NCBI GenBank assembly: GCA_947459175.1 | Contig: CANHCT010000011.1 | Location: 1-40,884 of the forward strand | Direction: 5' to 3' | DNA: 40,884 bases | Origin: Hymenobacteraceae bacterium | GTDB lineage: Bacteria; Bacteroidota; Bacteroidia; Cytophagales; Flexibacteraceae | Position numbers and translations under genes: made by a program | The notes under the pieces: model-generated | What the model saw: only the letters and a program-made list of their open reading frames with translations | Told to the model about the DNA's origin: nothing | The model's database searches: none | In this document: positions 13,664 to 15,815 of the stretch, in pieces | Layout of the letters: each line of letters opens with the position of its first letter | How positions within the stretch are numbered: the stretch's first letter is position 1

Positions 13664-14287
13664 TCAGGGTAGATGGCTGGTATCGTTTTTCAGCACGATG
13701 CGCCAGTTTTGTCCGTCATATTCAAGTACATACAAGCACAAATTGGAATGAAGATACTGTTCCATTTCAGACAACTGCGTTTTCATCAAATGAGAAAGCA
13801 AAATGCGCAATGCCCTGCCGTGTATGCACATGAGAATGGTTTTTTCATCCTTCCGGCTCATGATGATTTCCATGGCCTTTTTCATTCGCTGCATCACCTG
13901 ATTGGGACTTTCTCCATTTGCAAAGGACCTGTCCAGAAGGCCGGCTCTCCAGTCGGACAGCATGGCTTGATAGATGCGCTGCTCTGTAGGGTCTATGCGG
14001 GTGCCGTCTTTTTCACCCCATGAAATTTCCCGCAAATCGGTCATAGATTCATGCGGAATGCCCATTTCCAGAAAAGACTGAACGCTCTGATGGGTACGAA
14101 TGAGGTGAGAGGTGTAAATTTTATCAAAGTGTATATGCCTGTATGCCAGGAAAAAATCACGGGCCTGTTGCGTACCGGTTGCATTCAGCGGCGAATCGAG
14201 GCCGCTTCCCTGAATGATAAAATTCTTGTTGGGGTCAGTTTCACCATGCCGTGTCAGGTACAGTGTCTTCTCTGTCGTTAATTCCAT
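13664..14287 (-). CDS. histidine phosphatase family protein (phosphoglycerate-mutase-like)
   Basis: A 207-residue cytoplasmic protein of the histidine phosphatase superfamily. LTRHGETDPN near residues 12-20 holds the catalytic RHG, and ILMCIHGRALRILLSHL holds the second catalytic His. LREISWGEKDGTRID carries the proton-donor Glu region. Members include cofactor-dependent phosphoglycerate mutases, alpha-ribazole phosphatase and broad phosphatases; the shorter length and lack of mutase-specific insertions favour a phosphatase. Upstream in-frame codons to 14365 are excluded because the promoter lies at 14295-14302. It diverges from the tiny membrane ORF. Confidence 0.85.
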   Translation of the reverse strand: MELTTEKTLYLTRHGETDPNKNFIIQGSGLDSPLNATGTQQARDFFLAYRHIHFDKIYTSHLIRTHQSVQSFLEMGIPHESMTDLREISWGEKDGTRIDPTEQRIYQAMLSDWRAGLLDRSFANGESPNQVMQRMKKAMEIIMSRKDEKTILMCIHGRALRILLSHLMKTQLSEMEQYLHSNLCLYVLEYDGQNWRIVLKNDTSHLP

Positions 14288-14294
14288 TGGCCCG

Positions 14295-14302
14295 CAAATG
14301 TA
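14295..14302 (-). promoter_or_regulatory. -7 box TACATTTG of the histidine phosphatase gene
   Basis: The minus strand reads TACATTTG, an exact match to TAnnTTTG, ending eight bases before the ATG at 14287. The leader would be only a few bases. Confidence 0.55.
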
Positions 14303-14310
14303 GTTTTTCC

Positions 14311-14340
14311 TTTGGATTTTGCGGGGAGGACCTATATTTG
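14311..14340 (+). promoter_or_regulatory. Promoter of the tiny membrane ORF (TTTG-N18-TATATTTG)
   Basis: TTTG at 14311-14314 and TATATTTG at 14333-14340 are separated by 18 bases and both match consensus. Transcription is expected near 14345, about 19 bases before the ATG at 14364. Confidence 0.65.
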
Positions 14341-14363
14341 CCCCGCTTAAACAGAAGGAAAAC

Positions 14364-14471
14364 ATGTCGATGGAAATGGTTTCTTATGTGTTTTTTCTGC
14401 TGCTATTTGTCGCCTCCTTCTGGGTGGGGATATGGCTGGAAAATTCAGATAAGGCAAGAAACAAAGGATAA
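14364..14471 (+). CDS. 35-residue single-span membrane protein, unrecognised
   Basis: The ORF begins MSMEMVSYVFFLLLFVASFW and continues VGIWLENSDKARNKG before TAA. It is one hydrophobic segment (about residues 6-25) with a short N-terminus and a basic hydrophilic C-terminus (KARNK), as in small regulatory membrane proteins. GAAGG seven bases before the ATG could act as a ribosome binding site, unusual for this phylum. The reading frame is framed by a good promoter and a perfect hairpin terminator, which argues for a real expressed unit of about 165 nucleotides. I do not recognise a family. It could also be a small RNA with an incidental ORF. Confidence 0.6.
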   Translation: MSMEMVSYVFFLLLFVASFWVGIWLENSDKARNKG

Positions 14472-14483
14472 TTCCTGCAATAC

Positions 14484-14510
14484 AAAGGGTTCGATTCCGA
14501 ACCCTTTTTT
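14484..14510 (+). terminator. Intrinsic terminator after the tiny membrane ORF
   Basis: AAAGGGTTCG (14484-14493), loop ATTC and CGAACCCTTT (14498-14507) form a perfect 10-bp stem ending in a T run. It begins 12 bases after the ORF stop. Confidence 0.9.
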
Positions 14511-14511
14511 A

Positions 14512-14813
14512 TTGTCCTGCCTGGTGGTTTATTTTTCGAATGAGAGGGCCTGAGGATATATTTTTCAAAAAAGAAGAACCATCCTCCCGCCATTTTCAAA
14601 TTGCATTACCTTGAAGACAAGGAAAACCTCCGGCTGTTTTTTAATTCAGCAGGAAGTAAAAAATGAGTTAACCATACAACCGGCTTTGGGTATTAAAATA
14701 TTGGTTTTCAACTTTTTATTGATGTATAAAAAAGCAATGTCCTCAACCCAACTAAAAAATCAGGTTCTGCAATTCAAATCCATTGCCTAATATCGCAGCT
14801 TCAATTTATCTGT
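14512..14813. other. AT-rich gap without a recognised gene
   Basis: About 300 bases between the terminator and the THX gene. No ORF with protein features, RNA fold or repeat is evident on either strand. The THX promoter should lie near the right end; TAATATCG at 14788-14795 is the nearest candidate but is weak. Confidence 0.5.
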
Positions 14814-14996
14814 ATGGGAAAAGGAGACATCAAATCAAGAAAAGGAAAGCTGGCCAATGGTTCGTTCGGTAAAACCAGAAAAAGGAATGAAACCATGCCG
14901 AAGCCGGTAATGGCAGCCAAAGCCGAAAAGGTAAAAGCAACAGAAGAGGCAGAAAAGAAACCCGCCAAGGCCAAAGCCAAAAAAGCAGAGAATTAA
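14814..14996 (+). CDS. 30S ribosomal protein THX (bTHX) with a Lys/Ala-rich extension
   Basis: A 60-residue, very basic protein. Its first half, MGKGDIKSRKGKLANGSFGK followed by TRKRN, matches the THX signature (GKGDxKTxRGKxxxGSxGKxR), a tiny protein that sits in the head of the 30S subunit. Classical THX ends near this point; here the protein continues with a low-complexity tail of Lys, Ala and Glu (KPAKAKAKKAEN). That tail may contact rRNA or be disordered, which is inference. Its stop codon lies in the loop of the terminator shared with convergent dapD. Confidence 0.88.
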   Translation: MGKGDIKSRKGKLANGSFGKTRKRNETMPKPVMAAKAEKVKATEEAEKKPAKAKAKKAEN

Positions 14997-15009
14997 TCTC
15001 TGCTTTTTT
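14979..15009. terminator. Bidirectional terminator between THX and dapD
   Basis: AAAAAAGCAGAGA (14979-14991) pairs perfectly with TCTCTGCTTTTTT (14997-15009) around a five-base loop. Both strands give a stem followed by T, so it serves both convergent genes. It overlaps the last codons of THX and abuts the dapD stop. Confidence 0.88.
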
Positions 15010-15815
15010 TATGCCTCTACCTGAAAATCACGCAGGGTTTGATTCAATGAAACCTTCAGGTCGGTTCCGGGTGTTCTTTTACCGATAATCAGGGCACAGG
15101 GCACATGGTACTGCCCGGCAGGAAAAGTTTTGGGATACGAACCCGGAATAACCACAGATCCGGCCGGAACTCTTCCCTTATAATACACAGGCTCAGAACC
15201 GGTTACATCTATAATGCGGGTAGATCCGGTAATGGTGACCCCTGCTCCGAGGACTGCCTGCTCTTCAACAATGGCACCCTCTACTACAATACATCTGGAC
15301 CCGATAAAAGCCCCGTCTTCGATGATGACCGGATTGGCCTGCAGGGGCTCGAGCACCCCTCCTATTCCAACTCCTCCGCTCAGGTGTACATGCTTTCCGA
15401 TTTGTGCGCAGCTGCCCACGGTTGCCCATGTATCTACCATGGTACCGGCATCTACATAAGCGCCAATGTTGACATAGGAAGGCATAAGAATCACACCCGG
15501 GGCAATGTAGGAACCATACCTTGCTACTGCCGGGGGCACCGAACGAACACCTTTCGATTCAAAGTCCCGTTTCAGGCTCATCTTGTCATAAAATTCAAAA
15601 AATCCGGCCTCCATTTTCTCCATTTTCCTGATTTTGAAGTAGAGTAAAATGGCTTTTTTTATCCATTGATGGGTGTGCCATTCCCCGTTTATCTTTTCTG
15701 CTACCCGCAGTTTTCCCTGTTCCAGTCCGGAAATGACCTCCTCGACTTTACCAATAAGAGCCTGATCCTGAATCTTTTCCGGGTTTTCCCAGATCATTTC
15801 TATGATTTCCTGCAT
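15009..15815 (-). CDS. dapD: 2,3,4,5-tetrahydropyridine-2,6-dicarboxylate N-succinyltransferase
   Basis: DapD succinylates tetrahydrodipicolinate in the succinylase branch of lysine and diaminopimelate synthesis, giving a peptidoglycan precursor. The 268-residue length is typical. The C-terminal two-thirds is a left-handed beta helix of hexapeptide repeats, with PPAVARYGSYIAPGVILMPS and GAYVDAGTMVDTWATVGSCA as diagnostic segments. The SGGVGIGGVLEPLQANPVII stretch is close to the known DapD active-site region. An upstream -7 box of the TTCG type is present. It converges on THX through a shared terminator. Confidence 0.96.
   Translation of the reverse strand: MQEIIEMIWENPEKIQDQALIGKVEEVISGLEQGKLRVAEKINGEWHTHQWIKKAILLYFKIRKMEKMEAGFFEFYDKMSLKRDFESKGVRSVPPAVARYGSYIAPGVILMPSYVNIGAYVDAGTMVDTWATVGSCAQIGKHVHLSGGVGIGGVLEPLQANPVIIEDGAFIGSRCIVVEGAIVEEQAVLGAGVTITGSTRIIDVTGSEPVYYKGRVPAGSVVIPGSYPKTFPAGQYHVPCALIIGKRTPGTDLKVSLNQTLRDFQVEA

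Follow-up and report, generated by a model that had tools for sequence, protein, structure and literature searches.

A 35-codon gene for a predicted single-span membrane microprotein, MSMEMVSYVFFLLLFVASFWVGIWLENSDKARNKG, lies in the stretch of 40,884 nucleotides analysed here (the window), which comes from a Hymenobacteraceae genome. Comparison among genomes indicates that the gene is conserved across part of the Cytophagales and is almost universal in one family of this order, and that it stands as a single-gene unit between its own promoter and terminator (Table 1). The product appears to be a microprotein of a known kind, the single-span type, whose family is absent from the Pfam and NCBIfam libraries searched. 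The best-supported reading of its role, given about even chances, is that of an accessory subunit in some larger complex of the inner membrane, encoded elsewhere.

Table 1. Elements of the microprotein locus and its divergent neighbour, in window coordinates
Feature	Position	Strand	Basis
Promoter −33 element, TTTG	14311–14314	+	read from the sequence
Promoter −7 element, TATATTTG, Bacteroidota type TAnnTTTG	14333–14340	+	sequence and orthologue comparison
Coding sequence of 35 codons plus stop (ATG at 14364, stop 14469–14471), predicted single-span membrane microprotein	14364–14471	+	homologues, third-position bias, helix model
Intrinsic terminator, perfect 10-bp stem, 4-nt loop and T tract (hairpin 14484–14507, then TTTATT)	14484–14512	+	sequence and orthologue terminators
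Histidine phosphatase superfamily (branch 1), divergent neighbour outside the unit	13664–14287	−	PF00300, 2e-47

The first support for a protein gene comes from the pattern of substitutions. Twelve pairwise comparisons of close homologues gave pN/pS ratios of 0.06–0.42, and codon position 3 holds 158 of the 221 differences found in these pairs (p ~6e-31). When six independent pairs were pooled, 67 of 137 synonymous sites had changed versus 43 of 469 non-synonymous sites. Synonymous-biased change was among the checks proposed in the original prediction, and these values indicate a frame under purifying selection and a real protein gene. The same prediction held that a drifting frame with a persistent hairpin would point to a small RNA; what was found is the opposite, a frame that is kept and a hairpin whose sequence changes. 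A small RNA carrying a fortuitous open frame would suit the distance of ~165 nt from promoter to terminator, but the protein is conserved while the DNA diverges, the hairpin sequence is not, and Rfam offers no convincing family for the locus. Because of the pN/pS ratios and the third-position bias, such an RNA is excluded as the sole explanation, and its probability is negligible.

The transcription signals had been described as a TTTG element separated by an 18-nt spacer from TATATTTG, with a perfect 10-bp hairpin 12 nt after the stop of the 35-codon frame, and all of them are found where they were placed. A scan for E. coli-type sigma-70 promoters is blank at this promoter, as expected for one of Bacteroidota type, and a simple terminator scan on its own is at chance level (2 found versus 2.1 expected in the region). 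The case therefore rests on comparison. Of 64 orthologues, 51 have a TAnnTTTG box in the 150 nt before the gene, against 6.4 expected from shuffled sequences (at most 14 in 300 shuffles) and 8 of the 64 upstream regions in a reverse-strand control. The box is commonest 26 to 60 nt ahead of the start, and a TTG lies 17–23 nt upstream of it in 11 of the 64 orthologues, versus 0.7 expected. Downstream, hairpins followed by a T tract are present within 150 nt in 18 of 30 orthologues, with a hairpin sequence that varies where the hairpin is kept. Conservation, codon-position bias and the conserved promoter and terminator together bear out the earlier view that a short membrane protein is encoded here by a gene complete in itself.

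The genome of the window (96% complete) has one copy, and homologues with 67, 56 and 56% identity were found in three of the four other genomes searched from the same genus, each in the same divergent position beside a phosphatase gene. The fourth (G001) is without the microprotein gene and without the phosphatase gene; since both neighbouring genes are missing together, an assembly gap rather than a loss is suggested. In an order-wide search with a profile grown in two rounds (clear match, E < 1e-9), 36 of 148 sampled Cytophagales genomes gave clear matches (counted by hand from the result table), and homologues span six of the sampled families. One family carries the gene in 196 of 200 genomes and 35 of 36 genera, nearly always as a single copy, and retains it even in genomes of ~2–3 Mb; among its high-quality genomes (completeness of 90% or more, contamination of 5% or less), the count is 166 of 167. 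Two copies each are present in genomes G061 and G112, unlike in nearly all other carriers. Several families of the order are apparently without the gene, either through loss, through gain in a sub-clade or through divergence past detection. In the other orders of the class, no convincing match was seen among ~300 sampled genomes, and searches across the whole class, one of 395 and one of 345 genomes, returned outside the Cytophagales just fragments, every one with an in-frame stop. No match was found in the phage, plasmid and viral collections searched.

The phosphatase is a neighbour common to the genus only, and a hisB-like gene (named by eye from its sequence) lies upstream in 22 loci. In general, the genes closest to the microprotein gene recur among members of a genus or family and are replaced by others from one family to the next. 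This turnover argues for a single-gene unit outside any operon with the phosphatase. The longest open frame of the phosphatase runs from 13664 to 14365 on the reverse strand, and its ATG reaches into the very beginning of the microprotein gene; comparison with relatives places its true start, as is likely, near 14287. The original prediction had named this divergent gene correctly, but the functional link at which it hinted is not supported, as this neighbour is shared within one genus alone. As a functional partner the phosphatase was also rejected on two further counts: several relatives from the window's own family encode the phosphatase although no microprotein gene is detectable in them, and the two genes are far apart in one genome (G009). 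At three loci in two different families (L032 and L034 in f22, L040 in f4), the microprotein gene adjoins a homologous gene called aminotransferase-like from its appearance, without a profile scan, in differing orientation, and this shared neighbour may be left over from an ancestral location. On the other side of the unit, the window encodes ribosomal protein THX (14814–14997, forward strand; TIGR04560, 46 bits versus a cut-off of 26), with a long K/A/E-rich tail beyond the family domain, and a hairpin-plus-T stretch follows this gene near 14984–15010.

At the protein level, an alignment (A6) of 44 members, with lengths of 29–50 residues, yields the pattern M-x-M-E-x-x-A-Y-x-F-F-V-x-L-L-x-x-S-F-x-x-G-x-W-L-E-x-x-E/D-K/R-x-R/Y. 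In this alignment the second copy of G112 has one residue too few (MTMEI in place of MTTMEI), and for a few members a later start was used; both affect the extreme N-terminus alone. As is general for small single-span membrane proteins, the length is at most 50 residues, the frame is under coding selection and one helix is predicted. The single span and basic tail foreseen from the sequence agree with a peak 19-residue hydropathy of 2.28, with a structure model of one helix over residues 2–33 (mean pLDDT 87) and with a C-terminal end that averages 3.7 K/R and, in 43 of the 44 members, carries more positive charge than the N-terminal end. The positive-inside rule places such a K/R-rich tail in the cytoplasm, so that the orientation, judged from charge alone, is probably N-out/C-in. 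Conservation along the helix has a periodicity of 100–105 degrees (permutation p 0.014) and marks a face made of F11, L14, S18, G22 and L25, in which S18-xxx-G22 has a small residue at 18 in 93% and at 22 in 100% of members.

Such a face is open to more than one reading. The main rival to an accessory subunit is a self-associating helix, a lone homo-oligomer that would sense or shape the membrane, for example as a stress-modulating peptide. The S18-xxx-G22 face is what a helix homodimer would also be expected to have, a homo-oligomeric or lipid-interacting role would give the same helix pattern, and the search for a partner described below gave none. Against this, a specific protein contact would account just as well for the conserved charged end and the bulky F10/F11, and carriage by nearly all members of one family points to a steady function; on balance self-association is considered rather unlikely.

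The size, hydrophobicity and basic tail also recall the toxins of type I toxin–antitoxin systems (Hok, Ldr, TisB and DinQ type), small hydrophobic peptides repressed by an antisense RNA. The microprotein differs from them in giving no antisense promoter signal (in a sequence scan, antisense TAnnTTTG boxes lie over the gene in 5 of 64 orthologues versus 5.3 expected), in being nearly always single-copy and near-universal in one family, in being under strong purifying selection and in missing from the mobile-element collections mentioned above, so that a toxin is very unlikely.

The original prediction recognised no family, and the library searches agree with it: Pfam, NCBIfam and PDB profile searches returned chance-level matches at most, no similarity to any solved chain was seen in the PDB, and the literature library searched contained no paper with the motif strings tried. 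Among known small membrane proteins, one of the nearest is CydX (PF08173), the small subunit of cytochrome bd oxidase, with ~35 residues, one helix and a conserved charged end. CydX is characterized by the motif YxxWxxGx15E/D (PMC4325964), which is not present in the alignment of the 44 members; the microprotein has its conserved W at position 24, where the helix nears its C-terminal end, and PF08173 is absent from the matches listed in a Pfam scan of 26 members (E up to 1). The microprotein further differs from CydX in its opposite predicted orientation, in having its own promoter and no cydAB nearby, and in a cydA match that is missing from the window's genome and from most carriers. Single-span transporter regulators such as AcrZ and KdpF share with it a very short gene and a single helix, which in the microprotein would likewise pack on a large membrane protein, but no sequence match links them, and kdpA is missing in most carriers. 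CcoS/FixS (PF03597), the assembly protein of cbb3 oxidase, is equally small and single-span, yet is a distinct Pfam family, and three carriers of the microprotein gene, namely the window's genome, G003 and G004 (assemblies 89–96% complete), gave no FixS match.

Candidate partners were compared between 35 carriers and 32 non-carriers, with COX1 (heme-copper oxidase) searched in 42 genomes (35 carriers and 7 non-carriers), and none of the four markers indicated a partner. The cydA marker occurs in 8/35 carriers (missing in 27) and 5/32 non-carriers, and FixS, with 27/35 and 26/32, has no association. The kdpA marker leans to carriers (13/35 versus 5/32, p 0.058) but is missing in 22 of the 35. 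In the genome of the window no match to cydA, kdpA or FixS/CcoS (the cbb3 marker) was found, and its one heme-copper oxidase match falls in the aa3-like score group. Comparable length, one helix and a charged end speak for a small subunit of CydX, KdpF or cbb3 type, serving cytochrome bd oxidase, the Kdp pump or cbb3 oxidase, while the missing CydX motif and Pfam match speak against it. Because the markers are missing in the window's genome, and cydA and kdpA in most carriers, these three roles are disfavoured and taken together highly improbable.

Oxidases commonly have short single-helix subunits, and an orphan respiratory subunit of the aa3-type cytochrome oxidase or of an alternative complex III supercomplex, expressed from its own promoter, would be in keeping with this habit, with COX1 in 35/35 carriers, with exactly one heme-copper oxidase in the window's genome and with retention of the gene in the small genomes. 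The oxidase is also present in 7/7 of the non-carriers tested, however, which makes the pattern uninformative; moreover, the microprotein resembles no solved chain, and no oxidase gene was seen beside it among the nearest genes, most of which were judged by comparison among themselves rather than by a profile scan. Such a subunit is possible and unsupported, and is regarded as distinctly unlikely.

The accessory-subunit reading accommodates these observations as follows. The helix would span the membrane with its short N-terminus outside and its K/R-rich tail inside; the conserved face (F11, L14, S18-xxx-G22 and L25) would pack on a membrane protein or complex of larger size; and contact with this partner at the cytoplasmic surface of the membrane would be made by the conserved WLExxE/D-K/R-x-R/Y end. 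The effect may be to stabilise the complex or to tune it, much as CydX, AcrZ or KdpF do. The modulating function suggested in the original prediction is likewise inferred. Action in trans on a complex encoded elsewhere fits because no neighbour is conserved across families, and the partner would most likely be some housekeeping complex that all carriers possess. The apparent absence of the gene from several families that are expected to share housekeeping complexes counts against this reading.

The surprise lies in the near-universality within one family. A gene present in 166 of 167 high-quality genomes of this family, with no match to a model in the Pfam and NCBIfam libraries searched, points to a definite omission among the core genes of a large group, and the family profile can be used to find the gene in assembled genomes. 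Since the gene stands outside any operon, with a promoter and terminator of its own, it lends itself to a clean deletion, which together with a tagged pull-down in a cultured member could reveal the partner. More tentatively, and as a possibility that we consider somewhat unlikely, the microprotein may be obligatory for a core membrane complex that only part of the Cytophagales possesses, as a subunit present in essentially all members of one family and overlooked until now for want of a family model.
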